Assembly (NCBI GenBank): GCA_015231615.1
Contig: JADGBE010000013.1
Span: 1 to 64,000, forward strand
DNA: 64,000 nt
Direction of reading: 5' to 3'
Origin: Desulfamplus sp.
Lineage (GTDB): Bacteria; Desulfobacterota; Desulfobacteria; Desulfobacterales; Desulfobacteraceae
In this document: piece after piece, positions 10,387 to 29,116 of the stretch
Layout of the letters: every line of letters begins with the position of its first letter
How positions within the stretch are numbered: the stretch's first letter is position 1
Translations under genes and position numbers: made by a program
Notes under the pieces: model-generated
The model's input: only the letters and a program-made list of their open reading frames with translations
What the model was told of the DNA's origin: nothing
Databases searched by the model: none

Positions 10387-13300
10387 CTACCTCAAATTAA
10401 AAAACTCCACATTTGACCACCCGCTCAACCCATTGCTGTTATAAGCTTTAACCGCTCCATAAAAAGCAAATCCTTTGCCATCAAATGAGACTTCTCGCTG
10501 TTTACCCATCTCAATTTCGCCAATATCAGAGGGTTCTGGATTTGGATATGGAGCATAAAATAGCCTGTAGCCGTCAGCATTTGCAACTTCTGACCATGAA
10601 ACTGTAACCATATTTCCTTTGGTAGTGATTTTTATTTGTGGAGCTTCAAGAAATACTCCAGAATTTGCGATAACATTAAGAAATTTCTGCTCAGGCAGAG
10701 AGACATTACCAGCCTTGTCTTTGGCGTAATAGACAGCCTGATAACAGCCAGTTGCGAGGTTTGGGTAAGTTTGGCTTAAATCTGCTTCATAAACATTCAC
10801 TTTATCAGATTTTTGTTTCATCTCAATATTTACAGTTCGGTTTGATGGGTCAGTGATTGAGCTGATTGAACAAAATACGCCGCCCATTTCATTTTCAGGG
10901 TCAGTTGCAATCGCCCAGAGGAAATTATTTTGCGTATCTTCTCTGTTTATAGTCATGTCTGGATTTGTGGTTCTGATTTGTGGGCGTAAATTGCCAGATG
11001 GTCGGTATTCTATGAACTTGCCTGATGCCTCATAACTGTCAAACTTTGTCGTGCCAAAACCGTCTCCGTCTGCGTCCATTACTGGTCTTTGTGTGTGGCG
11101 ATAAAATTTCAAAATTTCGTAGCTTGCCTCAGCAAATGAGCCTTCAATATCACTGCCGTAGTTGATGAATTGATAGAAATATCGTGAAAATGAGCTTTCA
11201 CCAAGATTGTCGTAACCAGCATAACCGCCTTCATCAATCGGCTTGTCAGATGACGATGTCAAAATAATCCTGCCGTTACCTGCAATCTTTTCAATCCATT
11301 TACCAGATTGAGTTCCTTCAAGCACTATGGTTACAGGAAAACCTTTATATTCTGAATAGTTATCTTTTGAGTTGGTTTTAATGATCTCTTCAGCTTCATT
11401 AAGATATTTGGCAAGATCGTCAGCAGTTAAAACTTCGCTGTCGTTAAGTCTAAAACCGTTATCATCTTCAACTTTTCCGATAAGATAGAGATTTAAAGGG
11501 GTTTTGTATGGATCGTCAGTGGAAAATAAGGTGGTTGCCCAGTTAGTTAAAGAATCGTGCAGATTGGCTTTATTTGCTGTTCCGTTTGTAAATTTAGGGT
11601 CATCGGCAATGCCAAGATATTTTATTCGTTCGGCTGGAATATTTCTGCTTTTCAAGGCATTGTAAACATAACTGCCTAAATTCTTTGAAATGGTTTGAAA
11701 ATCTGCATTTCCAGATTCGGAAACAACAATAATTCCCTCACCAACTGGCTGACCAATCGGAACTACAAGTTTTGTGTTTATGCTGAGATAATCAGAAGTC
11801 TCTGGGAGGCTTGCCTTGACATTGATAAAACCGTTTCCAGGAACTACGACATCTCTATAAAATACGCCGTTTGCATCTATTTCAACACCTCCAACAAATT
11901 GGGGTTGAAGTCCAGCGTCTTGATTTGCAGGGTCAAGATAGCGAATATCAAGATTGACCTTTGTTCCGTCAAGTCGCACAGGTGTAATGATTCCTTGAAC
12001 TCTTAGAATATCGCCTTTTTTGGTTGATTGATTCACGTTTGATGATAGGGCTATGTTTGTTTTAGCTGGAAGGATAAAAATTTCTGCGGTGTTGCTGGTT
12101 ATTCCGTTTGAATTGGCAGTCAAAGTCAGCAATCCCGCATGAATCGGCGTAACAGTGCCTTGAAAATAACCTTTTTCATCGGTCGTAAAAGCCGCTGATT
12201 CCGCAGACTCTTTGATGTTATTGCCTGAAATAACTACAGATTGTCCCGCCTGTGCTGGAATAACATTCCCTGCAATCGTGAGAGAATCAAGAACTCTTGT
12301 CCGTTTTGTTTTATGGGCAATACTCAACGCAATCATGGAGTTTGTGCCATCGCTGACCTGAACATTTAAAGATGTGCTTTTGCCTGAATAACCTGATTGA
12401 ATTTTTGGAATGATTTTAATTGTTTGGGTGCTTTCAGAAAAGGCGGCAATTGTTAAAAGAACAGGTTTTGTTTCGCCTGATTTTAGTGAAACAGCTATGG
12501 GCTCAAGTTTTACGTTTATGTTATTGGAAATCGTATTTCCTGTGGCTGATTCAATCTCAAGAGCTACATCACCTCTGAACAAATCCAAAGAAGTGGCAAA
12601 CACCGTGATTTCTGCTTTTTCATTTGGCAACATTGCAATTGCATTTCTATCAAGGGTTAGCTCAACTCTTGGTTTCTCCTCAACCTGCGGGGTAATTAAA
12701 GCTGCTTCGTTGTTGTTTGCAACTCTGATAAGTTTGCCATTCTCTTCAATTACAGCAGAAAGGCGGTAATATCGGGGCAAACCTTCAAGCCATTCAGGGT
12801 CTTCTATTGGGGTATTGAGGGTATAGCCTTTTGTTGTTGAGCCGTCTGAATTTGTTCTTGTTTCTGGTGTGTGTCCTTCAACTGTAACCCAGCAGTTGTC
12901 AACTCTTGGTTTAGGACAAATCGAATAATCCGTGTAAAATCTGATTAGTTTATCTGAAGCATCAAGCACTGTTTCGTAAACGCCATCTTGTGATAATGAG
13001 CGTTGAAGTTCTATGTATTTGACGTTCTGAAAATCAAGAGAGGAAGAGTTGAGAAACCAGTTGATTGTGATTTCTGGGGAGTTGGGTTTGATGATTTGTT
13101 CGGGGGTGCCGAGTTGAAGGAAGTGGGCGAGACCTCCGCCATCAGTTCCAATCCATAATCCCCCGCTATTGTCTGACAAGAGGGAGAGTGAGTCAACATA
13201 GTTATCAGGTAATCCTGAATTTTTTGTATCAAAGACTTGCCACGAGCCGTTTGACTTTAAATGAGTAAGACCGCCTCCACGAGTTCCAATCCATAATCCT

Positions 13301-15036
13301 CCGCTTTCATCAGACAAGATTGAGCTAACATAGTTGTCAGGTAATCCTGAATTTTGTGTATTAAAGACTTGCCACGAGCCGTCTGACTTTAAATGAGCAA
13401 GACCGCCTCCATAATAATCGGCAGTTCCAATCCATAATCCTCCGCTGTTGTCTGACAAGAGGGAGTTAACAACTCCGCCTGGTAATCCTGAATTTTTTGT
13501 ATTAAACACCTGCCACTCACCGTCTGATTTAAAATGAGCAAGACCGTTAAATATAGTTCCAATCCATACTCCACCAATTCCGTCTGACGAGAGGGAGTTA
13601 ACAATTCCGCCTGGTAATCCTGAGTTTTCTTTATCAAAAACTTGCCACGAGCCATCTGACTTTAAATGAGCAAGACCGCCTCCATTAGTTCCAATCCATA
13701 AGTCCCCGTTGATGTCTGACAAAAGGGCAGAAACATTGTTATTAGGCAGTCCTGAATTTTTTGTATTAAAAACTTGCCACGAGCCATCTGTATTTAAATG
13801 GGTAAGTCCGCCAGAAGCTCCACCAATCCATAATCCTCCGTTGTTATCTGATAAGAGGGATGTAACAATGTTATCAAGCAATCCTGAATTTAAAGTATTA
13901 AATTTGAGATTCCTTTTTTTTCGCGAAATGTAAATGTAATTATCGTCTTTATGCTCACGCTCTGTATTAAAAACTTGCCACGAGCCATCTGACTTTAAAT
14001 GAGCAAGACCGCCTCCATTAGTTCCAATCCATAAGTCCCCGTTGTTGTCTGACAAAAGGGCAGAAACATAGTTATAAGGCAGTCCTGAATTTTTTGTATT
14101 AAAAACTTGCCACGAGCCATCTGTATTTAAATGGGTAAGTCCGCCCCAATAAGTTCCAACCCATAATCTCCCGTTGCTGTCTAACAAGAGAGATAAAACA
14201 TAGTTATCAGGTAATCCTGAATTTTTTGTATTAAAGACTTGCCACGAGCCATCTGACTTTAAATGTGTAAGACCACCATAATAAGTTCCAATCCATAATC
14301 CTCCGCTTTCGTCTGACAAGATAGAGTTAATAAAGTTGTCAGGCAAACCTGAATTGTTTGTATTAAAAACCTGCCACGAGTCATCTGCTTTTAAATGGGC
14401 AAGACCGCTGTTATAAGTTCCAATCCATAATCCTCCACTGTTGTCTGATAAGAGGGACCAAACAGAGTTGTCAGGCAATCCTGAATTTTCTGTATTAAAG
14501 ACTTGCCATGAGCCATCTACCTTCAAATGGACAAGATTTCTGTCATAATAACTGATAGTTCCGATCGTTATAATCCATAATCCTCCACTGTTGTCTGATA
14601 AGAGGGACCAAACAGCGTTGTCAGGTAATCCTGAATTTTGTGTATTAAAGACTTGCCACGAGCCGTTTGACTTTAAATGGGCAAGACCGCCACGAGTTCC
14701 AATCCATAATCCTTCGCTTTCATCTGACAAAAGGGAGTTAACATGGCTGGAAGGCAACCCATCTAAATTTGTAAATAACTGAAGAAGTTCTCCTGATTCT
14801 GCATTACGTTTTTCCAATCCACCAACTGTTCCCACCCAGAGTATTTTGCCATCGTCTGATCTCAATAAAGCATTAATCGTACTAATGCTTGTATAAACCT
14901 CCCAATTCTGCCTTTCTGCCTCAATACGATTTTCTTCTGATGATGCTATTGAAGGCAATACCCATAAACAAACAAGGAGCAAGTAAAAACAGTGATTTAC
15001 GCTAAAGAATCTGAATCTTTTTTGTTTTAATTTCAT
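10387..15036 (-). CDS. Giant secreted protein: 13 propeller blades, Ig-like domains, degenerate C13 caspase-like domain, FN3 (paralogue A)
   Basis: 1549 residues with a clear signal peptide (FYLLLVCLWVLPSIAS). About 40-640 holds 13 repeats of roughly 43 residues of the two-component-regulator propeller type (SGLPDNxVxSLLSD, GGLWIGT, GLAHLKSDGSWQVF). Units 6-7 and 8-9 are near copies. About 20 foreign residues (REHKDDNYIYISRKKRN) break the run after unit 7. Next come an FN3-like stretch, Ig-like segments, and a domain resembling peptidase C13/caspase (clan CD) at about 1115-1330. There the expected His-Gly reads LIGKVEDD and the expected Cys position reads LEGTQSG, so it is probably inactive. 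A DADGDG calcium-type loop, an Ig-like domain and a C-terminal FN3 follow. GGAGATTTTAC precedes the ATG. Last gene of a likely operon with paralogue B and the S41 protease. Confidence 0.85.
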   Translation of the reverse strand: MKLKQKRFRFFSVNHCFYLLLVCLWVLPSIASSEENRIEAERQNWEVYTSISTINALLRSDDGKILWVGTVGGLEKRNAESGELLQLFTNLDGLPSSHVNSLLSDESEGLWIGTRGGLAHLKSNGSWQVFNTQNSGLPDNAVWSLLSDNSGGLWIITIGTISYYDRNLVHLKVDGSWQVFNTENSGLPDNSVWSLLSDNSGGLWIGTYNSGLAHLKADDSWQVFNTNNSGLPDNFINSILSDESGGLWIGTYYGGLTHLKSDGSWQVFNTKNSGLPDNYVLSLLLDSNGRLWVGTYWGGLTHLNTDGSWQVFNTKNSGLPYNYVSALLSDNNGDLWIGTNGGGLAHLKSDGSWQVFNTEREHKDDNYIYISRKKRNLKFNTLNSGLLDNIVTSLLSDNNGGLWIGGASGGLTHLNTDGSWQVFNTKNSGLPNNNVSALLSDINGDLWIGTNGGGLAHLKSDGSWQVFDKENSGLPGGIVNSLSSDGIGGVWIGTIFNGLAHFKSDGEWQVFNTKNSGLPGGVVNSLLSDNSGGLWIGTADYYGGGLAHLKSDGSWQVFNTQNSGLPDNYVSSILSDESGGLWIGTRGGGLTHLKSNGSWQVFDTKNSGLPDNYVDSLSLLSDNSGGLWIGTDGGGLAHFLQLGTPEQIIKPNSPEITINWFLNSSSLDFQNVKYIELQRSLSQDGVYETVLDASDKLIRFYTDYSICPKPRVDNCWVTVEGHTPETRTNSDGSTTKGYTLNTPIEDPEWLEGLPRYYRLSAVIEENGKLIRVANNNEAALITPQVEEKPRVELTLDRNAIAMLPNEKAEITVFATSLDLFRGDVALEIESATGNTISNNINVKLEPIAVSLKSGETKPVLLTIAAFSESTQTIKIIPKIQSGYSGKSTSLNVQVSDGTNSMIALSIAHKTKRTRVLDSLTIAGNVIPAQAGQSVVISGNNIKESAESAAFTTDEKGYFQGTVTPIHAGLLTLTANSNGITSNTAEIFILPAKTNIALSSNVNQSTKKGDILRVQGIITPVRLDGTKVNLDIRYLDPANQDAGLQPQFVGGVEIDANGVFYRDVVVPGNGFINVKASLPETSDYLSINTKLVVPIGQPVGEGIIVVSESGNADFQTISKNLGSYVYNALKSRNIPAERIKYLGIADDPKFTNGTANKANLHDSLTNWATTLFSTDDPYKTPLNLYLIGKVEDDNGFRLNDSEVLTADDLAKYLNEAEEIIKTNSKDNYSEYKGFPVTIVLEGTQSGKWIEKIAGNGRIILTSSSDKPIDEGGYAGYDNLGESSFSRYFYQFINYGSDIEGSFAEASYEILKFYRHTQRPVMDADGDGFGTTKFDSYEASGKFIEYRPSGNLRPQIRTTNPDMTINREDTQNNFLWAIATDPENEMGGVFCSISSITDPSNRTVNIEMKQKSDKVNVYEADLSQTYPNLATGCYQAVYYAKDKAGNVSLPEQKFLNVIANSGVFLEAPQIKITTKGNMVTVSWSEVANADGYRLFYAPYPNPEPSDIGEIEMGKQREVSFDGKGFAFYGAVKAYNSNGLSGWSNVEFFNLR

Positions 15037-15058
15037 GTAAAATCTCCTGATAAAAATA

Positions 15059-17299
15059 TTAAAAAGCCCCGATAATCTTTCTAAAGCCTGAAACAGACTG
15101 TTCTATTGGCAATGTAGCAGATTTTATTTTGTGTGAAGAGAGAGCAGCTGATGAAAATTTGTCGTTTTCTAAATAATAGAGGGCTGCTTTTAAAGAGGCT
15201 TCATTTGGGTCTCCAAATTGCGAATCAAAGTCGTCTGCAACCTCATAATCCGGCTCTATTCCTCCAAAGTATCCGCCTTTACCATCACTGTTTACGGTTT
15301 CAAACATAATAGGTTCAAGCACCTTGTCGCAGAAAAATTGACTTGCCATTCCAACTGGCTTTCCGCATGTAATGCTGCCAATTGTTATTACATCTGCAAA
15401 CGGCTTAAGTCCGTTTATCAAAAGTTCACTTGCAGAACATGTTGATGCCCCAGTTATTACAACAATTCTTGAAAGATTAAGTGAATTAGACTGTTTTAAA
15501 AACTTGTAGGCATAATTTTCATCCTTATGTTTATCGTTATATTTAACAGTGGCAAATATCTCTCCATTAGTATTCTCTTTTGCTATTAAGGAAGCTAAAT
15601 ATGCAGATATTGAAACCCGGCCGCCGCCATTATACCTAAGATCAAGAACAAGTTCGTTTACTTTTTGTGCCTTAAAATAGCTGAAGACCTGATTAAGCTC
15701 TTGTTCAGAAGTTTCAAGAAAACTCATAAAAACAAGATAACCAATTTTTTTGTCTCCTGCATTGAAGATGTCATAATTAAAAACCGTGTTAATTTTGACC
15801 TTTTTCTTTGTCAGTTGTGTTTCAACTATATTGCCTTGAAGATCAGCAAATTCTAAATTGACAACAACTCCTTCTTTTGATTCCCCGTATATGTTGTCCC
15901 ATAGGCTGTTTGTTTCAATTTCTTCAACATCTTTTCCATTGACTTTAAGAACTGTCCAGCCTCTCTTAACTCCTGCTTTGTCTGCCGGCGAATCTTTATA
16001 AACATGGCTGATTCTTAAATTTTTATTGCTGTCATATTTAGTTCCATATCCCATGCCTATATATGTTCCCTCTTCAAACAAGGCAGCAAAAGATTCTGCT
16101 GATGTGATATAGCTCCATTTATCAAATTTCTTGTATTTTATAGCTTCTAACAGAAGTTCAGGAGATGAGTATTTTTTAGATGGTGATGAAATTTTGGGGA
16201 TTTTGCCATACCAATAATAAACATCAATCATACGATTATACAGCCACAAATTTTGGTCAACTGCAGAGCAGTCAGGAGAGTAATCATTCAGTGAGGTAAG
16301 TTGTAATTTAGCATTATTATCATTGGGTTGAAGTTTAAGATTCATCTCTACAAGCTTTATTTTTCCGTTATTTTCTTCTTGACGCACTGATGGAAGCTGC
16401 ATCTTATTTGTGCTGAAATCAAAAGATGGTCTAAAAGGTGATATAGAGATTTTGTTTAAAATATCATGCCATGAAAAAAGCTCTTCAAAAGGTTGATAAA
16501 CCTCTGTTTCTACTAAATTAAATGAAATTGGCTTTGTAGTATTTTGTTTTAAAGCTGTTGTATATGCTCCTGAAACACCTCCTGCGTTCAATACATCAAG
16601 GAGTGGAATATTAAGAGTTCCAGCATCTAAGTTATACACTGGCTGCTGCTGTGCTAAATTTATAATTTCAAAATTATCAAACCACGGCTTTGCCTCTTCG
16701 TCTGATACAAGCCCAACAGAACCGCCTAAATAGTTATCAAATTTCAAGAATTCTACTTCATTGTAATTAATGAAAAAACGAAACAAATTTCCCTGTTTGA
16801 GAATAGTCAATCTGTCATTTTTTCCTGTAATAGCAGGTGATTTTATATATCCTGTATAAAACTTCCATTTTTCCCCTTTAATAACCTCTATAATATAGTA
16901 TCCATCAAGGTTAATCTTGAACGTTATAATATCAGTTTTGTTATTTGAATCTTTCTGACCGCAAGCATATAATCCAAAAAATTTATCGCTTGATTCTTTT
17001 GCACAATTTACGATTACAGATGCTGCAAATTCGTAAAAGTAGTTGGATTTATCAATAGATGGATCCCAGCCGCCTGGATTTTCACCACCACCCCAACTTA
17101 CCCAGACATAATAGTATTTTTGAGGTTCTGAATTGTTGTAGTATAATGCACCGTCAGATATAAACCAGTCAGCATAAGGCTTAAATCCTTTTGTAGAAGA
17201 TGCAGCGTTAAAAGGTTCAAATATGTATGCATCAGAATATTTTGCAGCCAGAAGACACATAAGGATAGAAATGGTTGCAGCCACAACCCGTTTTTTCAT
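15059..17299 (-). CDS. Secreted S41 (C-terminal-processing-like) peptidase with N-terminal LamG-like domain
   Basis: 746 residues with a signal peptide (VVAATISILMCLLAAKYSDA). Residues about 25-215 form a concanavalin/LamG-like jelly-roll region (GYYIIEVIKGEKW ... VGLVSDEEAKPWFDNFEI). A linker is followed by the protease half (about 340-745), which has a PDZ domain (DSPADKAGVKRGWTVLKVNG) and the S41 core LVLDLRYNGGG. The probable nucleophile Ser lies in ASTCSASELL and the general-base Lys in ITCGKPVG, so the enzyme looks active. The ribosome site is GGAGAAAATAA-ATG. It lies 40 bp after paralogue B and 22 bp before paralogue A, indicating one transcript. Processing of its giant neighbours is an inference from position. 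Confidence 0.88.
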   Translation of the reverse strand: MKKRVVAATISILMCLLAAKYSDAYIFEPFNAASSTKGFKPYADWFISDGALYYNNSEPQKYYYVWVSWGGGENPGGWDPSIDKSNYFYEFAASVIVNCAKESSDKFFGLYACGQKDSNNKTDIITFKINLDGYYIIEVIKGEKWKFYTGYIKSPAITGKNDRLTILKQGNLFRFFINYNEVEFLKFDNYLGGSVGLVSDEEAKPWFDNFEIINLAQQQPVYNLDAGTLNIPLLDVLNAGGVSGAYTTALKQNTTKPISFNLVETEVYQPFEELFSWHDILNKISISPFRPSFDFSTNKMQLPSVRQEENNGKIKLVEMNLKLQPNDNNAKLQLTSLNDYSPDCSAVDQNLWLYNRMIDVYYWYGKIPKISSPSKKYSSPELLLEAIKYKKFDKWSYITSAESFAALFEEGTYIGMGYGTKYDSNKNLRISHVYKDSPADKAGVKRGWTVLKVNGKDVEEIETNSLWDNIYGESKEGVVVNLEFADLQGNIVETQLTKKKVKINTVFNYDIFNAGDKKIGYLVFMSFLETSEQELNQVFSYFKAQKVNELVLDLRYNGGGRVSISAYLASLIAKENTNGEIFATVKYNDKHKDENYAYKFLKQSNSLNLSRIVVITGASTCSASELLINGLKPFADVITIGSITCGKPVGMASQFFCDKVLEPIMFETVNSDGKGGYFGGIEPDYEVADDFDSQFGDPNEASLKAALYYLENDKFSSAALSSHKIKSATLPIEQSVSGFRKIIGAF

Positions 17300-17339
17300 T
17301 TATTTTCTCCATTTTGAATAATGTTTTTGATAGGTCTAT

Positions 17340-20300
17340 TTACCTCAAATTAAAAAACTCCACATTTGACCAACCACTTAAACCATTACTGTTATATGCT
17401 TTAACCGCCCCATAAAAAGCAAATCCTTTTCCATCAAATGTGATTGTTCTTTGGTTTCCCATATCAATTTCCCCAATATCTGCCGGCAGACAATCAGGAT
17501 AAGGACAATAAAAGAGCTTGTATCCGTCAGCATTTGCAACTTCTGACCATGAAACTGTAACCATATTTCCTTTGGTAGTGATTTTTATTTGTGGAGCTTC
17601 AAGAAATACTCCAGAATTTGCGATAACATTAAGAAATTTCTGCTCAGGAAGAGACACATTACCAGCTTTGTCCTTTGCGTAATAGACAGCTTGATAACAG
17701 CCAGTTGCAAGGTTTGGGTAAGTTTGGCTTAAATCTGCTTCATAAACATTCACTTTATCAGATTTTTGTTTCATCTCAATATTTACAGTTCGGTTTGATG
17801 GGTCAGTAATTGAGCTGATTGAACAAAATACGCCGCCCATTTCATTTTCAGGGTCAGTTGCAATCGCCCAGAGGAAATTATTTTGCGTATCTTCTCTGTT
17901 TATCGTCATGTCTGGATTTGTGGTTCTGATTTGCGGGCGTAAATTGCCAGACGGACGATATTCAATAAATTTGCCTGACGCTTCATATCTGTCAAAGTTT
18001 GTTGTACCAAAACCGTCTCCATCTGCGTCCATCACTGGTTTTTGAATATGGCGGTAAAATTTCAGGATTTCGTAGTTAGCCTCTGCAAATGCCCCTTCAA
18101 TATCGCTACCGTAGTTTATGAACTGATAAAAATACCGCGAAAATGAGCTTTCTCCGAGATTGTCGTAACCAGCAAAACCGCCTTCATCAATCGGCTTGTC
18201 AGATGACGATGTCAAAATAATCCTGCCGTTACCTGCAATCTTTTCAATCCATTTACCAGATTGAGTTCCTTCAAGCACTATGGTTACAGGAAACCCCTTA
18301 TATTCTGAATAGTTATCTTTTGAGTTGGTTTTAATTATCTCTTCAGCTTCATCAAGATATTGTGCAAGGTCGTCAGCAGTCAAAACTTCGCTGTCGTTAA
18401 GCCTGAAACCGTTATTATCATCTTCAACCTTGCCGATAAGATATAGATTTAATGGCGTTTTGTATGGGTCGTCAGTTGAAAATAAGGTGGTTGCCCAGTT
18501 GGTTAAAGCGTCATGCAGATTGGCTTTATTTGTTTTGCCAAAATTTTCAGCTGCTAAAGAGTCGTTAATTTTAAAATCAGCAATGATTTTATCGCCTCCA
18601 AGACCTAAATATTTTATTCGTTCTGCTGGAATATTCCTTGATTTAAGAGCGTTATAAACATAATTGCCCAAACTCTTTGAAATGGTTTGAAAATCTGCAT
18701 TTCCAGATTCGGAAACCACAATAATTCCCTCACCAACTGGCTGACCAATTGGAATCACAAGTTTTGTGTTCACGCTTAAATAATCAGAAGTTTCAGGCAG
18801 GCTTGCCTTGACATTAATAAAGCCGTTTCCCGGAACTACAACATCTCTATAAAATACACCATTTGCGTCTATCTCCACACCTCCAACAAATTGAGGTTGC
18901 AGTCCAGCGTCTTGATTTGCAGGGTCAAGATAGCGAATATCAAGATTGACCTTTGTTCCGTCAAGTCGCACAGGTGTAATGATTCCTTGAACTCTTAGAA
19001 TATCGCCTTTTTTGGTGGATTGGTTCACGTTTGATGACAGGGCAATGTTGGTTCTGGCTGGAAGGATAAATATTGCTGCGGTGTTGCTGGTTATTCCGTT
19101 TGATTGGGCGGTCAAGGTCAGCAAACCCGCATGAATTGGCGTAACAGAACCTTGAAAATAGCCTTTTTCATCAGTCGTAAAGGTCGCTGATTCAGCAAAT
19201 TCTTTGATGTGATTACCTGAAATAACTACAGATTGCCCCGCCTGTGCTGGAATCACATTACCTGAAATCGTGAGAGAATCGAGAACCCTTGCCCGTTTTG
19301 TTTTGTGGGCAATGCTCAAGGCTACCATAGAATTTGTGCCATCGCTGACCTGAACATTTAAAGATGCACTTTTGCCTGAATAACCTGATTGAATTTTGGG
19401 TATGATTTTAATGCTTTGGGTGTTTTCAGCAAAGGCCTCAAGTGTCAGAAGAACAGGTTTTGTTTCGCCTGCCTTTAAAGAAAGTGTGGAAGATTCAAGT
19501 TTTGCGTTTATATTGTTTGAATTTGCAACACTATCACCCGATTCAATTTCAAGATCAACATTACCTCTGAATAAATCCAAAGAAGAGACAAACACCGTGA
19601 TTTCCGCCTTTGTGTTTGGCTGCATGGCAATTGCATTTTTATCAAGGGTCAATTCAACTCTTGGTTTCTCCTCAACCTGCGGGGTAATCAAGGCTGCCTC
19701 ATTATTGTTTGCCACTCTGACAAGTTTGCTGTCTTCTTCAATTATAGCAGAAAGGCGGTAGTATCTTGGCAGCCCTTCCAGCCATTCAGGGTCTTCTATT
19801 GTGGTGTTGAGGGTGTAGCCTTTTGTTGTTGAACCGTCTGAATTTGTTTTTGTTTCTGGTGTGTGTCCTTCAACTGTAACCCAGCAATTATCAACTCTTG
19901 GTTTAGGACAAATCGAATAATCTGCGTAAAATCTGACTGGTTTATCTGAAGCATCAAGCACTGTTTCGTAAACGCCGTCTTGGGATAATGAGCGTTGGAG
20001 TTCAACGTATTTAACATTCTGGTAATCAAGAGAGGAAGAGTTGAGAAACCACTTGATGGTTATTTCTGGGGAGTTGGGTTTTATGAGTTGTTCGGGGGTG
20101 CCGAGTAGTAAAAGATGGTAAAGCCCATCAAGACCGCTCCCTAACCAGATACCCCCTTTACCATCGGGTAATAAACCTCCTCTTCCATCAGGTGACATTG
20201 GAACAACCCAAACAAAAGAAGAAGCATCCTTATCATAAACATCCCATGCACCATCTTTCTTCATATGTGCAAGCCCAATACTACCACCTGTTCTCACCCA

Positions 20301-22202
20301 AATACCACCTTGTCCGTCAGACATAAGGGATTCAATGGAATTATTTGGTAATCCAGAGTTATTTTTATCAAATACTTGCCAAGTTCCATCAGACTTAATA
20401 TGAACAAGACCTCCTATTGATGTAAATCCTAATTCAGTACTGCTTTGTGTTCCTACCCAAATACCGCCTTTACCATCGGATAATAAACAAGAGACAAAAT
20501 TAGAGGGCAAGACAGAATTATTTGGTGTGAAGACTTGGCAGGTTCCATCGGCATTCAAGTGGCCAAGACCTCCAAAATATTCATCGCTAAACAGAAACCC
20601 TATCCAAATCCCCCCTTGAGCGTCAGACAAAAGACAGTTGATAGTATTCGATGGTAAACAAGAATTATCTTGAGTAATAAATTCCATTTTCCCATCTGAT
20701 GTCAGATGCTGAAGACCACCGAAAGTCTTTCCCATCCAAATACCTCCCTGATTGTCGGAAATAAGAGAAGTAGTCCAGTTTACTGGAGAAAAGAGCGAAC
20801 TCATTGGTAGGTTTGAGTTGTCTTGGGGCAATATTTCCCATGAATTGTCAGCCTTCAGATGGGTAAGGGCGGTATCTGTTGCAAATGTTCCTATCCAAAT
20901 TCCACTTTGATGGTCAGAAAGAAGGGAAGTTATCCAATCGTGTGGCAGATCGGAATTATCTTCCGTGAAGACATCCCATGAGTTATCCGCTTTCAGGTGA
21001 CCAAGCCCTACACCAGTACCTACCCAGATGCCATTTTTTCCATCAGGAAGAAGAAAATTGACCGTATTATCTGGTAAATTAGCGTATTTTCTATTAAAGG
21101 ACTCCCATGTATTATCTGGTCTCAAATGTGCAAGACCGGAATTTGTACCTATCCAGAGTCCATTCGCACCATCAGATAGAATACAAAATATAGTATTAGT
21201 TGGTAAGTTGAAGTCATCCTTATCAAAAATTTCACATGTGCCGTCTGATTGCAAATGTGCAAGACCACCGCTCTCATAACTATCACCACCAAGTACAGTC
21301 CTTTCAGAAAATTCCGAAGTTCCAACCCAAACCCCGCCTTGACCATCAGAAAGAAGACATTTGATATGATTGCTTGGCAACCCTGAGGTTTCAGTGTTAA
21401 AGACATCCCATGTATCGTCAGCTTTTAGATGGGCAAGTCCTTTATCAGTTCCTATCCAAAGACCTCCTTTTTTATCAGATAGAATAGTTCTAATATTGTT
21501 ATTTGGCAGCTCAGAATTAAATGTAGTGAATTGATATTGAGTCCCATCTATCTTAATGTGAATAAGACCCCCAATAATATTCGAATTCTCTTCAGCAACC
21601 ACTCCTGCCCAAATACCACCTTGACCGTCAGACAAAAGGACAGAAACATAATCCATGAAGTTTAAATCTGGCAAATCAGGGTTATAAGAGTTTAAATAAA
21701 AGATGCTCCATGAACCATCTGACTCTAAGTGGGCAAGCCCTACTTCGCTGCCAACCCAGATACTGCCTTGACCGTCAGGTAGTAAGGATGCGGCCATCTT
21801 AAACGGCAAATCAGTGAAGACTTCCCAGCTTTCGTCTGCACTTAAATGTGCAAGTCCATTAACAGCTCCAACCCAAATACCACCTTGACCATCAGGTAGA
21901 AGTTTCCCTACCCCTCTATATGGTAACCCACTCTTTTTTGTATAAATTTTTTTAAGCGATCCGGTAAGAATATCTATCTTTTCGAGACTGCCTGAGGTGG
22001 CCACCCATAGACTCGATTTATCGTCAGATATTGCCAAATCGAATATTCTGCTTTTATCTACATAAACCTCCCAATTCTCTCTTTCCGCCTCCACACGATT
22101 TTCTGCCCATGCTATTGAAGGTAACACCCAAAAGCAAACAAGAACCACGTAAAACCAGTGAGTTGAGTTAAAGAATCTGAATCTTTTTGTTTCTAATTTC
22201 AT
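17340..22202 (-). CDS. Giant secreted protein: 14 propeller blades, Ig-like domains, degenerate C13 caspase-like domain, FN3 (paralogue B)
   Basis: 1620 residues, same plan as paralogue A: signal peptide (FYVVLVCFWVLPSIAWA), about 14 divergent propeller units (GGIWVGT, GLAHLKADxSW), the Ig-like middle, the caspase-like domain and FN3. The blades differ strongly from A and C. The C-terminal 900 residues are nearly identical to A, in places at DNA level, which points to gene conversion or recent duplication of that half. The catalytic positions read LIGKVEDD and LEGTQSG, again without His or Cys. Compared with A there is a short extra segment (DFKINDSLAAENFGK) before the domain. First gene of a B-S41-A operon. 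The region upstream of its ATG (AAAATCTCCTTAAAGATGG on the plus strand) is shared with paralogue C. Confidence 0.85.
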   Translation of the reverse strand: MKLETKRFRFFNSTHWFYVVLVCFWVLPSIAWAENRVEAERENWEVYVDKSRIFDLAISDDKSSLWVATSGSLEKIDILTGSLKKIYTKKSGLPYRGVGKLLPDGQGGIWVGAVNGLAHLSADESWEVFTDLPFKMAASLLPDGQGSIWVGSEVGLAHLESDGSWSIFYLNSYNPDLPDLNFMDYVSVLLSDGQGGIWAGVVAEENSNIIGGLIHIKIDGTQYQFTTFNSELPNNNIRTILSDKKGGLWIGTDKGLAHLKADDTWDVFNTETSGLPSNHIKCLLSDGQGGVWVGTSEFSERTVLGGDSYESGGLAHLQSDGTCEIFDKDDFNLPTNTIFCILSDGANGLWIGTNSGLAHLRPDNTWESFNRKYANLPDNTVNFLLPDGKNGIWVGTGVGLGHLKADNSWDVFTEDNSDLPHDWITSLLSDHQSGIWIGTFATDTALTHLKADNSWEILPQDNSNLPMSSLFSPVNWTTSLISDNQGGIWMGKTFGGLQHLTSDGKMEFITQDNSCLPSNTINCLLSDAQGGIWIGFLFSDEYFGGLGHLNADGTCQVFTPNNSVLPSNFVSCLLSDGKGGIWVGTQSSTELGFTSIGGLVHIKSDGTWQVFDKNNSGLPNNSIESLMSDGQGGIWVRTGGSIGLAHMKKDGAWDVYDKDASSFVWVVPMSPDGRGGLLPDGKGGIWLGSGLDGLYHLLLLGTPEQLIKPNSPEITIKWFLNSSSLDYQNVKYVELQRSLSQDGVYETVLDASDKPVRFYADYSICPKPRVDNCWVTVEGHTPETKTNSDGSTTKGYTLNTTIEDPEWLEGLPRYYRLSAIIEEDSKLVRVANNNEAALITPQVEEKPRVELTLDKNAIAMQPNTKAEITVFVSSLDLFRGNVDLEIESGDSVANSNNINAKLESSTLSLKAGETKPVLLTLEAFAENTQSIKIIPKIQSGYSGKSASLNVQVSDGTNSMVALSIAHKTKRARVLDSLTISGNVIPAQAGQSVVISGNHIKEFAESATFTTDEKGYFQGSVTPIHAGLLTLTAQSNGITSNTAAIFILPARTNIALSSNVNQSTKKGDILRVQGIITPVRLDGTKVNLDIRYLDPANQDAGLQPQFVGGVEIDANGVFYRDVVVPGNGFINVKASLPETSDYLSVNTKLVIPIGQPVGEGIIVVSESGNADFQTISKSLGNYVYNALKSRNIPAERIKYLGLGGDKIIADFKINDSLAAENFGKTNKANLHDALTNWATTLFSTDDPYKTPLNLYLIGKVEDDNNGFRLNDSEVLTADDLAQYLDEAEEIIKTNSKDNYSEYKGFPVTIVLEGTQSGKWIEKIAGNGRIILTSSSDKPIDEGGFAGYDNLGESSFSRYFYQFINYGSDIEGAFAEANYEILKFYRHIQKPVMDADGDGFGTTNFDRYEASGKFIEYRPSGNLRPQIRTTNPDMTINREDTQNNFLWAIATDPENEMGGVFCSISSITDPSNRTVNIEMKQKSDKVNVYEADLSQTYPNLATGCYQAVYYAKDKAGNVSLPEQKFLNVIANSGVFLEAPQIKITTKGNMVTVSWSEVANADGYKLFYCPYPDCLPADIGEIDMGNQRTITFDGKGFAFYGAVKAYNSNGLSGWSNVEFFNLR

Positions 22203-22277
22203 GTAAAATCTCCTTAAAGATGGTTGGGGGGTGAAATACCATTTGAAAAATATCAGGGTATTTAATACACTAACATT

Positions 22278-22382
22278 ATGAAAAAATACAGAATAGTTAT
22301 AGATACCAATGTTTTTATAAGTGCTTTGAGGTCAAAAAGAGGGGATAACTGTAATGACAACATTAAGGATAAACCTTCCTGA
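22278..22382 (+). pseudogene. Truncated PIN-domain toxin (first ~23 residues)
   Basis: A frame missing from the track reads MKKYRIVIDTNVFISALRSK then RGD, the opening of a PIN-domain (VapC-type) ribonuclease with its first acidic residue in IDTNV. After 23 residues the frame runs into the start of the antitoxin gene and stops (34 codons). The other three acidic residues are missing, so no nuclease activity is expected. It is one of only two plus-strand pieces in a 34-kb minus-strand stretch. Confidence 0.7.
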
Positions 22383-22482
22383 TTCTTTACATAAAAAGGC
22401 AGAAGAGCTTGCGTCTAATGGGCAGATGTCAATAAATCAGCTTATTACAACTGCACTGGCTGAAAAACATGATGAATTGTAG
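22354..22482 (+). CDS. Small ribbon-helix-helix antitoxin (HicB C-terminal/VapB-like)
   Basis: Forty-two residues: MTTLRINLPDSLHKKAEELA then SNGQMSINQLITTALAEKHD. This is the ribbon-helix-helix signature of short HicB-type or VapB antitoxins (strand, then the SINQLITTALAEK helix). AGAGGGG stands 7 nt before the ATG, so it is probably translated. The family normally runs another 20-40 residues and is usually followed by a toxin. Here it follows the PIN stub and no toxin gene lies downstream on the plus strand, so it may be a solitary or degraded antitoxin. Its start overlaps the PIN remnant in another frame. Confidence 0.65.
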   Translation: MTTLRINLPDSLHKKAEELASNGQMSINQLITTALAEKHDEL

Positions 22483-22532
22483 TAATTGCTGCCCCATATT
22501 AAGTATTAAAAATGTAAACATGGAAGGGACAC

Positions 22533-22660
22533 TTACATATTAACCGTAACCTCTTCCCAACACAACCTGTCAAACCCTAATGACACCACATCAAAGCTCT
22601 TGAGCCTGAAATCTTTTCCTAAATACCGCTTTTTTAATATTTGGCTGTATTCTCTAAATT
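22533..22660 (-). pseudogene. Coding-like C-terminal fragment overlapping the 3' end of paralogue C
   Basis: In a frame different from paralogue C, the minus strand reads FREYSQILKKRYLGKDFRLK then SFDVVSLGFDRLCWEEVTVNM and a stop. The composition looks like a genuine protein end, but I do not recognise the family and see no start. The fragment begins exactly where paralogue C diverges from A and B, so it probably marks a recombination junction. It should be treated as a remnant only. Confidence 0.3.
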
Positions 22661-25600
22661 AAAAAACTCCACATTTGACCATCCACTTAAACCATTGCTT
22701 TTATAAGCCTTAACCGTCCCATAAAATGCAAATCCTTTGCCATCAAACGTTATTTCTCTTTGCTTGCCCATATCAATTTCGCCAATATCTGATGGTGAAC
22801 AATCTGGATAATTACAATAAAAGAGCTTGTATCCGTCAGCATTTGCAACTTCTGACCACGATATTGTAACCATATTTCCGTTGGTAGTTATTTTCATCTT
22901 TGGAGCTTCAAGAAGCACTCCAGAATTTGCAATAACATTCAAGAATTTCTGCTCAGGCAACGAAACATTACCAGCCTTGTCCTTTGCGTAATAGACAGCC
23001 TGATAACAGCCAGTTACAAGATTTGGGTAATTTTGGTTTAAGTCTGCCTTGTAGAAATAGCCCGTATCAAGTTTCATTTCAATATTTACGGTGCGGTTTG
23101 ATGGGTCAGTGATTGAACAGAAAACACCCTGCATCTCGTTTTCAGGGTCAGTCGCAATCGCCCAGAGGAAATTGTTTTGAGCATCCACTCTATTTATCGT
23201 CAAATCAGGGTTTGTGGTTCTGATTTGTGGGCGTAAATTACCAGACGGACGATACTCAATAAATTTACCTGACGCCTCATATCTGTCAAAGTTTGTTGTG
23301 CCAACACCGTCTCCATCTGCATCCATCACTGGTTTTTGCGTATGGCGGTAAAATTTTAGGATTTCGTAGTTAGCCTCTGCAAATGCCCCTTCAATATCAC
23401 TGCCGTAGTTGATGAATTGATAGAAATATCGTGAAAATGAGCTTTCACCAAGATTGTCGTAACCAGCAAAACCGCCTTCATCAACTGGCTTGTCAGATGA
23501 CGATGTTAAAATAATTCTGCCGTTACCTGCAATTTTTTCAATCCATTTGCCAGATTGAGTTCCTTCAAGAACTATGGTTACAGGAAACCCCTTATATTCT
23601 GAATAGTTATCTTTTGAGTTGGTTTTAATTATCTCTTCAGCTTCATTAAGATATTGTGCAAGGTCGTCAGCAGTTAAAACTTCGCTGCCGTTCAACCTGA
23701 AACCGTTATTCTCATCTTCAACTCTGCCGATAAGATATAGATTTAAAGGGGTTTTATATGGGTCGTCAGTTGAAAATAAGGTGGTTGCCCAATTGGTTAA
23801 AGCGTCATGTAGATTTGCTTTATTTGCTGTTCCGTTTGTAAATTCAGGGTCATCAGCAATGCCAAGATATTTTATTCGTTCGGCTGGAATATTTCGACTT
23901 TTCAGGGCGTTATAAACATAATTACCCAAACTCTTTGAAATGGTTTGAAAATCTGCATCTCCAGATTCGGAAACCAGAATAATCCCCTCACCAACCGGCT
24001 GACCAATAGGAATCACAAGTTTTGTGTTTATGCTAAGATAATCAGAAGTTTCAGGCAGGCTTGCCTTTACGTTGATAAAGCCGTTACCCGGAACTACAAC
24101 ATCTCTGTAAAATACGCCGTTTGCATCTATTTCAACACCTCCAACAAATTGGGGTTGTAATCCAGAACTTTGATTGGCAGGGTCGAGATAACGTATATCA
24201 AGATTGACCTTTGTTCCGTCAAGTCGAACAGGCGTAATGATTCCCTGCACCCTTAAAATATCGCCTTTTTTGGTTGACTGATTCACGTTTGATGAAAGGG
24301 CAATGTTCGTTCTGGCAGGCAGGATAAAAATTTCTGCGGTGTTGCTGGTGATTCCGTTTGATTGGGCAGTCAAGGTCAGCAATCCCGCATGAATTGGCGT
24401 AACAGTGCCTTGAAAATAACCTTTTTCATCGGTCGTAAAAGTCGTTGATTCAGCGGATTCTTTAATATTATTGCCTGAAATAACTACAGATTGCCCCGCC
24501 TGTGCTGGAATAACATTACCTGAAACCGTCAGAGCGTCCAGCACTCTTGTCCGTTTTGTTGTGTGGGCAATGCTTAATGCAATCATGGAGTTTGTGCCAT
24601 CGCCAACTTGAACATTTAAAGATGCACTTTTGCCTGAATAACCTGATTGAATTTTAGGAATGATTTTAATTGTTTGGGTATTTTCAGAAAGGGCGTCAAT
24701 TGTCAAAAGAACTGGTTTTGTTTCACCTGATTTTAAAGAAACAGAAGAAGGTTCAAGCCCCACATTTATGTTATTAGAAATCGTATTGCCTTCAACTGAT
24801 TCAATTTCAAGCGTTACATCACCTCTAAACAAATCCAAAGAAGAGACAAACACCGTAATTTCTGCCTTTGTGTTTGGCTGCATGGCAATTGCATTGCGGT
24901 CAAGCGTTAGTTCAACTCTTGGTTTTTCCTCAACCTGCGGAGTAATTAGAGTTGCTTCGCTGTTGTTTGCAACTCTTACAAGTTTTCCATCTTCTTCAAT
25001 TACAGCAGAAAGGCGATAATATCGTGGTAAACCTTCAAGCCATTCAGGGTCGTTTATTGGAGTGTTTAGGGTGTATCCTTTTGTTGTTGAACCATCTGAA
25101 TTTGTTTTTGTTTCTGGTGTGTGTTCTTCAACTGTAACCCAGCAGTTGTCAACTCGTGGTTTAGGACAAATAGAATAATCAGCATAAAATCTGATTAGTT
25201 TATCTGAAGCATCAAGCACTGTTTCGTAAACTCCATCTTGAGATAATGAGCGTTGGAGTTCTATATATTTGACGTTTTGGTAATCAAGAGATGAAGAGTT
25301 GAGAAACCAGTTGATTGTGATTTCCGGGGAGTCGGGTTTTATGAGTTGTTCAGGGGTGCCGAAAAGAAGTAGGTGGGCGAGACCGCCACCATCAGTTCCA
25401 ATCCATAACCCTCCTTGCTCGTCTGAAATAAAAGACTGCACATCGTTATTCGGCAGCCCTGAATTATCTTTATTAAAGACTTGCCATGAGCCATCTGATT
25501 TTAAATGTGCAAGACCGTCAGAAGTTCCGATCCATAATCCTCGTTCCTCGTCTGAAATAAGAGAATAGACAAAATTAAACGGCAGCCCTGAATTGTCTGT

Positions 25601-26518
25601 ATTAAATACCTGCCATGTGCCATCTGACTTATAATGGGCAAGACCACCTCCCCAAGTTCCAATCCATAAACCACCGCTTTGGTCGGACAAGAGGGCAAAA
25701 ACCCTGTTGCCAGGGAATCCTGGACTTTCTTCATCAAATACCTTCCATGATCCATCTGCCTTGAAATGGGCAAGACCGCCCCAAAAAGTTCCAATCCATA
25801 AACCACCGCTCTGGTCTAACAAGAGGGAACGAACAGAGTTGTCAGGTAATCCTGAATTTTGTGTATCAAAAACTTGCCATGTGCCATCTGACTTTAAATG
25901 GACAAGACCGCCCCCAGTTCCAATCCATAAACCACCGCTGCCGTCTGATAAAAGAGATGCAACATAATTGTCAGGTAATCCTGAATTTTTTTTATTAAAT
26001 ACTTGCCAAGAGCCGTCTGACTTTAAATGAGCAAGACCGCCCCCAATCGTTCCAATCCATAATCCTCCGTGTTGGTCTGATAACAGGGAATAAACAATGT
26101 TGTCGGGCAATCCTGAATTTTTTTTATTAAATACTTGCCATGAGCCATCTGATTTTAAATGTGCAAGTCCACCTAAATAAGTTCCAATCCAGAGTCCCCC
26201 GCTACTATCTGACAGGAGAGAGGTAACAATGTTGTCCGGCAATCCATCTAAATTTATAAACAACTGAATAAGGTGTCCTGTTTCTGCGTCACGTTTTTCC
26301 AATCCTCCCATTGTTCCAACCCAGAGAGTTTTGCCATCATCAGATAACAATAGAGCCTGAACATTGCTACGGCTTGTATAAACCTCCCAATTTTGCCTTT
26401 CCTCTTCAATACGATTTTCTGCAAATGCCATTGAAGGCAACGCCAAGAAGCAAACTAAAATCATGTAAAACCAGTGAGTTGCATTAAAGAATCTGAATCT
26501 TTTTTGTTCTGATTTCAT
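22634..26518 (-). CDS. Giant secreted protein: 8 propeller blades, Ig-like domains, degenerate C13 caspase-like domain, FN3 (paralogue C)
   Basis: 1294 residues, the shortest of the three. A signal peptide (FYMILVCFLALPSMAFA) is followed by only 8 propeller units (GGLWIGT, GLAHLKSDGSWQVFNK), then the same Ig-like, caspase-like and FN3 order. The caspase-like positions read LIGRVEDE and LEGTQSG, so His and Cys are again absent. The blades are closer to A than to B. The last residues differ: A and B end FFNLR, whereas C ends FFNLENTAKY because the frame runs into unrelated sequence. The 5' untranslated sequence up to ACCATCTTTAAGGAG matches that of paralogue B. Separated from B by the toxin-antitoxin debris, so probably its own transcription unit. 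Confidence 0.85.
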   Translation of the reverse strand: MKSEQKRFRFFNATHWFYMILVCFLALPSMAFAENRIEEERQNWEVYTSRSNVQALLLSDDGKTLWVGTMGGLEKRDAETGHLIQLFINLDGLPDNIVTSLLSDSSGGLWIGTYLGGLAHLKSDGSWQVFNKKNSGLPDNIVYSLLSDQHGGLWIGTIGGGLAHLKSDGSWQVFNKKNSGLPDNYVASLLSDGSGGLWIGTGGGLVHLKSDGTWQVFDTQNSGLPDNSVRSLLLDQSGGLWIGTFWGGLAHFKADGSWKVFDEESPGFPGNRVFALLSDQSGGLWIGTWGGGLAHYKSDGTWQVFNTDNSGLPFNFVYSLISDEERGLWIGTSDGLAHLKSDGSWQVFNKDNSGLPNNDVQSFISDEQGGLWIGTDGGGLAHLLLFGTPEQLIKPDSPEITINWFLNSSSLDYQNVKYIELQRSLSQDGVYETVLDASDKLIRFYADYSICPKPRVDNCWVTVEEHTPETKTNSDGSTTKGYTLNTPINDPEWLEGLPRYYRLSAVIEEDGKLVRVANNSEATLITPQVEEKPRVELTLDRNAIAMQPNTKAEITVFVSSLDLFRGDVTLEIESVEGNTISNNINVGLEPSSVSLKSGETKPVLLTIDALSENTQTIKIIPKIQSGYSGKSASLNVQVGDGTNSMIALSIAHTTKRTRVLDALTVSGNVIPAQAGQSVVISGNNIKESAESTTFTTDEKGYFQGTVTPIHAGLLTLTAQSNGITSNTAEIFILPARTNIALSSNVNQSTKKGDILRVQGIITPVRLDGTKVNLDIRYLDPANQSSGLQPQFVGGVEIDANGVFYRDVVVPGNGFINVKASLPETSDYLSINTKLVIPIGQPVGEGIILVSESGDADFQTISKSLGNYVYNALKSRNIPAERIKYLGIADDPEFTNGTANKANLHDALTNWATTLFSTDDPYKTPLNLYLIGRVEDENNGFRLNGSEVLTADDLAQYLNEAEEIIKTNSKDNYSEYKGFPVTIVLEGTQSGKWIEKIAGNGRIILTSSSDKPVDEGGFAGYDNLGESSFSRYFYQFINYGSDIEGAFAEANYEILKFYRHTQKPVMDADGDGVGTTNFDRYEASGKFIEYRPSGNLRPQIRTTNPDLTINRVDAQNNFLWAIATDPENEMQGVFCSITDPSNRTVNIEMKLDTGYFYKADLNQNYPNLVTGCYQAVYYAKDKAGNVSLPEQKFLNVIANSGVLLEAPKMKITTNGNMVTISWSEVANADGYKLFYCNYPDCSPSDIGEIDMGKQREITFDGKGFAFYGTVKAYKSNGLSGWSNVEFFNLENTAKY

Positions 26519-26596: not shown

Positions 26597-27499
26597 TTAT
26601 CGCTGATTATGTTTTATTTCTGTTACTTTGCTTATATCCATATTGGCAATAGATGCAACTTCTTCAATTGTCATACCTCTTAATAACATTGCCTTTACCA
26701 TTTTTTCTTCACCTTCTTTTATCCCATCTTTTATCCCTTCTTTTTTTCCCTCTTTTATCCCCTCAGCCTTAGCTTTCAAGATAGCTGTTTGTGCAGATTT
26801 GATGCGTGTTAATTGATCCATTATCTCTGCCTGTCGGGCTTCATATAACATTCGGGCTTTTTCATCTTGGGCTATTATTTGAAGCAGATCAAAGGCACTT
26901 CCTATATGTTTGTTTTTTTGTGCAAGCATCTCTATCACCTCTCTTGATTTGGCGTTGATAAACATCATCCATTGGGTTATTGGATCATTTTCATCTATTG
27001 TTGTTGCTGGATCAAACAGCTTTGGTAACTCCATAAAATGAATCTCTTCAATATCAGTAAGTTTATGCCCTGTGTGATCTTCAATCAAATGATAGCAAGA
27101 GTGAAGCTGTTTAAGCGGTGTGCATTCAAAATCCACGATATTAATGGTTATACACCGTTTAAGCTGATCATAGGTATCACCAGATTTAATTTGTGATACA
27201 AACATTTTTGCCCAATAGAACAGAGTCCGTTCTGGCATAAATTCTGTGGGTAAAATCTGAATCTCAATATTTATCTGCTCTCCATCTTTAGTCTGTGCCC
27301 TGACATCAAGTATGCCTTTTTTATCCTCTTTAAATTCACGCAGTAATTCTGAGTTGATGATTTTAATATCAGCAAGTTCACCTTCTGACATATTTAAAAC
27401 ATTTGTCAGAAAGGCTATAAGTATGTGCTTGTTTTTCTCATCTCCAAATATCAATTTGAATACAAAATCATTTTTGGGGGACATTAAATAATCGTTCAT
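26597..27499 (-). CDS. Rpn family recombination-promoting nuclease / PD-(D/E)XK transposase-like protein
   Basis: 300 residues. MSPKNDFVFKLIFGDEKNK is the opening of the Rpn/PDDEXK_2 family. The nuclease core is visible as GILDVRAQTKDGEQINIEIQ, giving the D...ExQ pattern. The C-terminal tail holds a charged tetrad repeat (EGIKEGKKEGIKDGIKEGEE) and then a helix VASIANMDISKVTEIK, common in this family. Rpn proteins nick DNA and stimulate RecA-independent recombination; they are multi-copy and often decayed. A second 3' end of the same gene type is fused to the neighbouring small gene. Confidence 0.88.
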   Translation of the reverse strand: MNDYLMSPKNDFVFKLIFGDEKNKHILIAFLTNVLNMSEGELADIKIINSELLREFKEDKKGILDVRAQTKDGEQINIEIQILPTEFMPERTLFYWAKMFVSQIKSGDTYDQLKRCITINIVDFECTPLKQLHSCYHLIEDHTGHKLTDIEEIHFMELPKLFDPATTIDENDPITQWMMFINAKSREVIEMLAQKNKHIGSAFDLLQIIAQDEKARMLYEARQAEIMDQLTRIKSAQTAILKAKAEGIKEGKKEGIKDGIKEGEEKMVKAMLLRGMTIEEVASIANMDISKVTEIKHNQR

Positions 27500-27871: not shown

Positions 27872-29116
27872 TTACCGATAATTTTGCAAACGCTCCAACC
27901 TTCTATTTATACCCCACTCAAGTTTTAGTATGTCAGATTCAGGGACTTTGTAACGTCCAAAAATCGTTCGCCATTCTGATACAGCCTGAACCACCTCATC
28001 AATAATTTGTCCGCTGTTTTTAATGTGCTGCTGTTTTCCAATCTGTTGCAGACTGTTTCTATCTGGTGGCAGATAGCTTGAGTTAAACGACAATGTATGT
28101 TCTCTTCTTTCGTATATATCAGGCAATAGGTCATAGGCAGGCGACAAACAAAATCCATGCTCTTTGTGGAGCATACAGAAGTTTTTGAGATGATCGTCAG
28201 TATTGCCGATTGCAGCATTAAAAACCATCTGACGGAACAGGAGAGGAATATCAGTTGAGGGCTGGACGCTGTGAGATTTAAGAACGTTAAACATATCGTT
28301 GTAGCCAAGATAATAGAACCCTTCAGCCCGCAATAGAGTCTGCATACTGATAATATGATAACGACCGCCATTAGGCGAAACGTCAAACCGCCTTAGCATC
28401 AGGAGTTTTCTGCTGCCGATACTCTGGATTTCAAACTCAGGAACGATAATTCCTGACTGCCGTGCAAGCTCAAGGGTTGCAGCTTCAATTGGGATAACAT
28501 CAAGTTTGTCGTTAAGGCTTGGTAACTTGACAATCCAGAGAGACATATCATCTTTATTTACAAGTGCTTTGGGTCTTGCACCGCCCGGCGAGCTTCCTAC
28601 CCGAAAAAGCAGCTGTAAATCAGCCTCATCAACCTGTAAACCTGAATCGTATCTTAAAGATGCATTTAAAAGAGTGTTCAATTCCACCATGCTTGCTGAA
28701 CCGTTCTCATCAGTGGTGTTTTTGGCTGACATATCAGAGACAGAGACACCAGAGTCTAAGATGAAAGAGAGAGAACCCAATCCGTTTGCCCCTAATATTT
28801 CAAGCAATTTAGGAAGGTTTTGTTCTCTTCTTCCAAGTTTTGCCTTTTGAATCAAAAGTTTTCTTCCCCAGTCATCAGGAAGCGAATCCTCAAAAACTGC
28901 GTGAATTCCAGTTGGTCGATCTGCAATAAACTCTTTTGATGACAATGGCAGGTTGACGGGATCCAATGGAAACGCAAACGGATTTTCAAGATATTCTGGT
29001 GTATATCTGAATGCACCTTGTATGAATCCTCGTGAATCAGGGGTTGTCGTGAGAATATCGCCGCAATATAATCGTTTTCTATCAGGTAACGTAACCATTA
29101 CACGCAATTTTATCAT
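27872..29116 (-). CDS. hipA: HipA-family serine/threonine kinase toxin
   Basis: 414 residues, normal length for HipA toxins, which phosphorylate tRNA synthetases and cause dormancy. Visible: the N-subdomain with GALGF-like start region (FQGAFRYTPEYL is a local variant here), the Gly-rich loop GSSPGGARPK, the nucleotide-binding Lys in WIVKLPS, the catalytic Asp-Asn motif IGNTDDHLKN and the metal-binding SPAYDLLP. All the key kinase residues I can recognise appear present. It starts 14 bp after the HipB-type gene, the classical antitoxin-then-toxin order. Confidence 0.88.
   Translation of the reverse strand: MIKLRVMVTLPDRKRLYCGDILTTTPDSRGFIQGAFRYTPEYLENPFAFPLDPVNLPLSSKEFIADRPTGIHAVFEDSLPDDWGRKLLIQKAKLGRREQNLPKLLEILGANGLGSLSFILDSGVSVSDMSAKNTTDENGSASMVELNTLLNASLRYDSGLQVDEADLQLLFRVGSSPGGARPKALVNKDDMSLWIVKLPSLNDKLDVIPIEAATLELARQSGIIVPEFEIQSIGSRKLLMLRRFDVSPNGGRYHIISMQTLLRAEGFYYLGYNDMFNVLKSHSVQPSTDIPLLFRQMVFNAAIGNTDDHLKNFCMLHKEHGFCLSPAYDLLPDIYERREHTLSFNSSYLPPDRNSLQQIGKQQHIKNSGQIIDEVVQAVSEWRTIFGRYKVPESDILKLEWGINRRLERLQNYR

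Follow-up and report, generated by a model that had tools for sequence, protein, structure and literature searches.

A legumain-like C13 domain without its catalytic dyad in secreted propeller proteins of Desulfamplus, a candidate partner of intact C13 proteases

The DNA analysed here (the window) is a stretch of 64,000 nucleotides from contig JADGBE010000013.1 (C44 in our numbering, 69 kb), which belongs to the 3.86-Mb genome of a Desulfamplus species distinct from Desulfamplus magnetovallimortis, the magnetotactic sulfate reducer of the Desulfobacteraceae in the same genus. Its minus strand carries three giant paralogous genes, A, B and C, which the initial annotation had described as coding for secreted proteins with a C13-like domain in which both catalytic residues are replaced. 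All three are intact open reading frames (ORFs), each beginning with a signal peptide as judged by eye, and the interval that they span (10387-26518) also holds an unrelated gene for an S41 peptidase. The features of this interval are as follows.

10387..15036, minus strand: paralogue A, 1549 aa, intact ORF, made up of a signal peptide, about 13 Reg_prop repeats (to about residue 641), beta-sandwich domains, the C13-like domain and two C-terminal beta-sandwich domains
11059..11757, minus strand: C13-like domain of A, residues 1094-1326, placed by alignment with intact C13 domains, hhalign and Foldseek
11473..11475, minus strand: codon of Lys1188 of A, at the catalytic His position, from alignments
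11311..11313, minus strand: codon of Thr1242 of A, at the catalytic Cys position, from alignments
15059..17299, minus strand: S41 peptidase (C-terminal-processing type) with a PDZ domain, 746 aa, Pfam Peptidase_S41 E 4.1e-20
17340..22202, minus strand: paralogue B, 1620 aa, with the architecture of A and a divergent propeller
18012..18749, minus strand: C13-like domain of B, Lys at the His site (18429-18431) and Thr at the Cys site (18264-18266)
22634..26518, minus strand: paralogue C, 1294 aa, with the architecture of A and a shorter propeller (8 repeats)
23306..24007, minus strand: C13-like domain of C, Arg at the His site (23723-23725) and Thr at the Cys site (23558-23560)

Active members of the C13 family carry His-Gly after the third core strand and the motif [DE]xCxSG after the fourth, and neither is found in A, B or C. 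The motifs first quoted for these proteins are present, with a His loop that reads LIG-K-VE in A and B and LIG-R-VE in C, and with VTIVLEGTQSG, LTADDLxxYL and ILTSSSDKP in all three. When the proteins are aligned with intact relatives encoded in the same genome, the segment LYLIG-K/R-VED falls opposite FLLGHG, YFTNHGG and YVHGHAD, and VLEGTQSG opposite VMDSCYSG, IIDACYSG and VLDTCYSG. This places Lys, Lys and Arg of A, B and C in the catalytic His column and Thr in the catalytic Cys column, as the initial annotation had it, with Val following the His site where active C13 enzymes have Gly; the same pairing is returned by hhalign and by profile comparison with legumain. The domain contains no Cys at all, those of A being found only at positions 16, 23, 707, 715, 1389 and 1431, and therefore no other arrangement, such as a His/Cys pair elsewhere in the domain, could make it a cysteine protease.

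The descent of this domain from an intact C13 protease fold is established by profile comparison. The family of domains without the dyad (hereafter dead) was aligned by hhalign with intact C13 domains over 204 columns, with a probability of 98.8% and E 1.2e-16, and its profile scores 76 bits on an intact C13 domain, the first domain of a tandem protein. A mixed profile of dead and intact relatives matched human legumain with E 2.5e-8 and paired the same columns; the profile of the dead family alone found no match in the PDB, and intact relatives had to be added. Similarly, the search against the Peptidase_C13 model that had been proposed as a check failed, as Pfam PF01650 gave no match to the domain of A, B or C at E up to 10; intact relatives scored 26-48 bits against a cut-off of 22.8. 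Such domains are thus missed by Pfam-based annotation. Membership of the pseudo-orthocaspases (family C14) was rejected, since the proteins of the window have no Pfam C14 (p20) match and their nearest solved relatives are legumains. An AlphaFold2 model of the domain, built from ten sequences, has alternating strands and helices in clan CD order (predicted local distance difference test, pLDDT, 63; predicted template modelling score, pTM, 0.65). In a Foldseek search with this model legumain 5obt_A came first (E 6.2e-4) and GPI transamidase K second (9.3e-4), followed by weaker matches to asparaginyl ligases, metacaspases and caspases, so that the suggested clan CD relationship survives the structural check. 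Judged by profiles and predicted structure, the domain has a clan CD fold nearest to C13/legumain and is placed in the C13 superfamily as a non-peptidase homologue.

The N-terminal parts of the three proteins are propellers, with Reg_prop repeats scoring 128-187 bits against a Pfam cut-off of 20.4 (E 1.7e-58 for A). Searches of the whole proteins with Pfam and NCBIfam returned only the propeller and weak beta-sandwich matches. The beta-sandwich assignment leans on low-confidence secondary structure predicted for the C-terminal half of C, and the 909-residue model of that half (pLDDT 57, pTM 0.34) is too weak for domain packing. An identity of the A and C propellers with PorZ of type IX secretion was rejected, since NCBIfam NF052228 gave 108 and 72 bits where 260 are needed; a search of the genome for type IX sorting tails (PF18962) found no match.

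The initial annotation had counted three copies, which is right for the window, while the genome holds at least five full-domain dead copies (A, B, C, D on contig C166 and E on contig C8, whose gene runs off the contig end) plus a C-terminal fragment. D. magnetovallimortis has four more, whose domains are 74-77% identical to those of the window species. Across all nine copies 135 of the 233 domain positions are invariant, including LIG-x-VE and LEG[TS]QS around a freely varying His site: it is K, K, R, K and R in the window species and A, D, D and T in D. magnetovallimortis, and the Cys site is Thr in the former and Ser in the latter. The nine copies form one clade (support 100/100) with a long stem. 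The loss therefore most simply predates the split of the two species and the copies are not independent; as far as the sequences indicate, the dyad was most simply lost in one old event, not three.

Among the copies of the window species, dN/dS in the domain (ratio of non-synonymous to synonymous substitution rates, by the counting method NG86) is 0.03-0.13. Between the two species, where dS is saturated, dN of the domain is 0.15-0.19, the lowest of four regions, the others being the spacers (about 0.29-0.37), the C-terminus (0.27-0.32) and the propeller (0.44-0.83). For an intact orthologue pair of the same two species, dN of the C13 domain is 0.32, and the dead domain is therefore at least as constrained as the living one. 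The domain is thus not decaying but maintained in both species by strong purifying selection, and in A, B and C it is very probably a pseudoprotease kept by selection. Compared with single-domain intact proteins, constraint has moved in relative terms from the His loop towards the C-terminal helices, but this observation was discounted, as a tandem intact pair has a similar trend.

The conclusion of the initial annotation that these are selected pseudo-proteases thus stands, while its argument from three copies is weak: the loss was inherited once and the C-terminal modules look homogenised. The chances are evenly balanced that A, B and C are alike mainly because a constant C-terminal module has been placed on varied propellers by recent duplication and gene conversion, in which case three copies say little about selection. 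Within the window genome the part from spacers to C-terminus has dS of 0.24-0.83 and the propellers are near saturation except for A and C (0.65), and the copies cluster by species in the tree. These values suggest that conversion or exchange has distributed the constant module among genes with varied propellers, although the alignment of the propeller repeats may be out of register. Such homogenisation, which is compatible with our best explanation, accounts for likeness within a species but not for low dN between species at saturated dS. Better evidence for selection than the three copies is that a second species has conserved the domain with other residues in the two lost positions, that dN lies below that of the active orthologue, and that the genes pair with those of intact C13 proteins, as described below.

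Possible drivers of module exchange are nuclease-like and ATPase-like ORFs. A PDDEXK_2 nuclease/transposase-like ORF lies directly upstream of C (window 26597-27499), a similar ORF is found upstream of D (L016:2250-3116), and AAA-type ATPase-like ORFs stand beside D and the D. magnetovallimortis copies. A HipA-like protein with HipA_C and Couple_hipA domains is also encoded upstream of the A-B-C cluster (window 27872-29116).

Most dead copies outside the window adjoin intact C13 genes. A Pfam C13 search of the window genome found four relatives above the cut-off, two of them on contig C163 and one each on contig C166 and the contig labelled C13, and three of the four keep the dyad. Copy D lies 2.4 kb from one of these, the intact N1, with one ORF between them, while copy E is at a contig end. 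In D. magnetovallimortis the four dead copies, on two contigs, form same-strand clusters with four intact Reg_prop-C13 genes. A further dead gene of the window species, R1 on C163, begins 26 bp after the intact N3; it has lost His to Arg and Cys to Ser (YRGEE..EASYSG) and is a separate dead Reg_prop-C13 lineage with an independent loss. By our own estimate, the chance of lying within 10 kb of an intact C13 gene is about 2-4% per cluster, given the three intact genes found over 3.9 Mb and about a dozen over 6.7 Mb. An origin of the dead genes as recent local duplicates of the neighbouring intact ones was considered and found unsupported, their similarity to the D. magnetovallimortis neighbours being among the lowest.

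Two further observations concern these neighbourhoods. A clostripain-type C11 gene (L016:13752-16106) adjoins N1 near D, giving three clan CD-type genes on one strand. The R1-N3 pair with its 26-bp gap (L018:3418-6720 and L018:6747-9449, both on the minus strand) is nearly identical at the DNA level in another genome of the genus (L024; dS 0.00-0.03), which suggests recent transfer or mis-binning.

In other Desulfobacterales many proteins contain two C13 domains in one chain (examples are L035, L039, L054-L057, L060, L063, L072, L074, L087, L097, L104 and L106). Exactly one dyad is intact in all 21 informative proteins of this kind: it is that of the first domain in 20, and the order is swapped in L077, which comes from another branch. 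The dead second domains form a clade (support 99/93), so that most of them go back to a single ancestral loss. For dead single domains the tree requires at least five label changes, and for intact versus broken seven. In the single C13 domains of L036, L033 and L067 one dyad residue or both have been exchanged (H/S, R/D and H/P), apparently in separate losses. Dead and intact C13 domains thus recur together in Desulfobacterales, as neighbouring genes in Desulfamplus and within one chain elsewhere.

How could a protease domain that does not cut be of use? A, B and C would be exported to the periplasm or the surface, each with a propeller as recognition head, beta-sandwich spacers and a non-cutting legumain-like C13 domain. 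The dead domain would be the non-catalytic half of a protease pair and would bind an intact C13 partner or its substrate, thereby setting where or when the partner cuts, with the variable propeller recognising a target or signal. For A, B and C the partner might be encoded elsewhere, or the S41 peptidase might work with them. Only 40 bp separate the S41 gene from B and 22 bp from A, and because of these short gaps B, the S41 gene and A are probably co-transcribed. Its product, which has an extra N-terminal region and an NCBIfam prc match of E 2.7e-31 that is under the cut-off of that model, is a possible processing partner.

A role of the domain in binding or presentation, first raised in the initial annotation, is a plausible hypothesis. 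The more specific role as a partner, which rests on the pairing of genes and of domains, is a tentative proposal that falls a little short of an even call. The same measure of belief, slightly under one half, is given to the explanation as a whole, namely a selected pseudoprotease that serves as the partner- or substrate-binding subunit of C13 proteases. Several results weigh against it. The 69-kb contig of A, B and C holds no intact C13 gene, and the four D. magnetovallimortis copies, lying on two contigs, cannot be counted as four separate cases. By score the family is closest to intact first domains of tandem proteins from elsewhere, at the 76 bits given above, and not to the adjacent intact genes, which reach 17-24 bits (D. 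magnetovallimortis neighbours) and 45 bits (N1). A grouping of the family with the dead tandem clade is neither supported nor rejected (approximately unbiased test, p 0.086), the family is present in only two of the ten genomes of the genus that were examined, and confidence in the domain model is modest.

The main rival gives the dead domain a general task in a surface or adhesion protein, as a structural module or one that binds peptides or ligands, and supposes no functional link with intact C13; shared mobile, repeat-rich regions would then account for its co-location with intact genes. We regard this as quite possible, though we would not bet on it: the copies in the window lack an intact C13 gene nearby, nuclease/transposase-like ORFs and AAA-type ATPases flank several copies as in recombining regions, and the LIG-x-VE and LEG[TS]QS pocket motifs are invariant, as a ligand pocket would be. 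Yet the pairing of dead and intact domains recurs in unrelated branches and in cis, both in R1-N3 and in the tandem proteins, which mobile regions alone would not explain. It is improbable that the domain has acquired new catalysis, in which the Thr or Ser that replaces the Cys would be the nucleophile and another residue the base. The Cys position always bears a hydroxyl (Thr or Ser by species) within an invariant EG[TS]QS, and His1314 is invariant too, but the position of the former general base varies freely (K, R, A, D, T), leaving no dyad, and His1314 falls in a helix close to the C-terminal border, a poorly modelled part in which proximity could not be shown. Simple decay after loss of function, to which the missing catalytic residues and the varying His site might point, is hardly credible given intact ORFs of 1294-1620 aa, the low dN/dS, and a domain that evolves more slowly between species than the rest of the protein, and more slowly even than the active orthologue.

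Three groups of C13 proteins invite comparison. Legumain (asparaginyl endopeptidase), the best match by profile and fold, shares the fold, the order of strands and helices, and the positions of the His and Cys loops, whereas the bacterial domain of A, B and C is devoid of the catalytic His and Cys, escapes Pfam C13 detection and is joined to a propeller and beta-sandwiches. The intact Reg_prop-C13 proteins of Desulfamplus (L050:4150-7845, L019:1-2844), which are neighbours of the dead genes in D. magnetovallimortis, have the same type of propeller and the same order of propeller and C13 domain; they differ in having a DHG..DACHSG or NHG..DACYSG dyad, other spacers and low C13 similarity (17-27 bits). 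The tandem proteins likewise couple a dead C13 domain to an intact one, yet in the same chain and with a dead domain of a separate clade, and those sampled have no Reg_prop-type motifs.

Dead relatives of caspases are already described in C14. Pseudo-orthocaspases, found mainly in Alphaproteobacteria and Cyanobacteria and often with Tyr-Ser in place of His-Cys (PMC6426788), resemble A, B and C in being bacterial clan CD homologues long retained without a dyad (PMC6426788), while they belong to C14 (p20) and the present family to C13, with K/R-T or A/D/T-S. The human cytosolic C14 homologue FLIP(L) binds and tunes caspase-8 (PMC7586951), and CspC and CspA, subtilisin-like pseudoproteases of Clostridioides, are reported to govern CspB (PMC6636752, PMC6199464). 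In both, a dead protease relative senses, binds or controls an active one, which is how A, B and C might act by analogy; FLIP(L) is a cytosolic C14 protein and the Csp proteins are subtilisin-like, whereas A, B and C are C13 proteins. The main text of the paper on copper-sulfide biomineralisation in D. magnetovallimortis makes no mention of C13, caspase or propeller proteins, and a literature search of partial coverage found no description of bacterial C13 pseudoproteases, which within that coverage appear to be new.

By the same analogy, Desulfobacterales may possess a two-part extracellular protease, in which an intact C13 enzyme is bound and controlled by a dead C13 domain, fused or neighbouring and tuned by an exchangeable propeller; this would be a bacterial, extracytoplasmic counterpart of FLIP(L) and caspase-8 that arose in C13 on at least two independent occasions. 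At present this is speculative and rather unlikely. If dead and intact C13 units do pair, they would show how bacterial legumain-like enzymes are controlled, and also how clan CD repeatedly evolves inactive regulatory partners.

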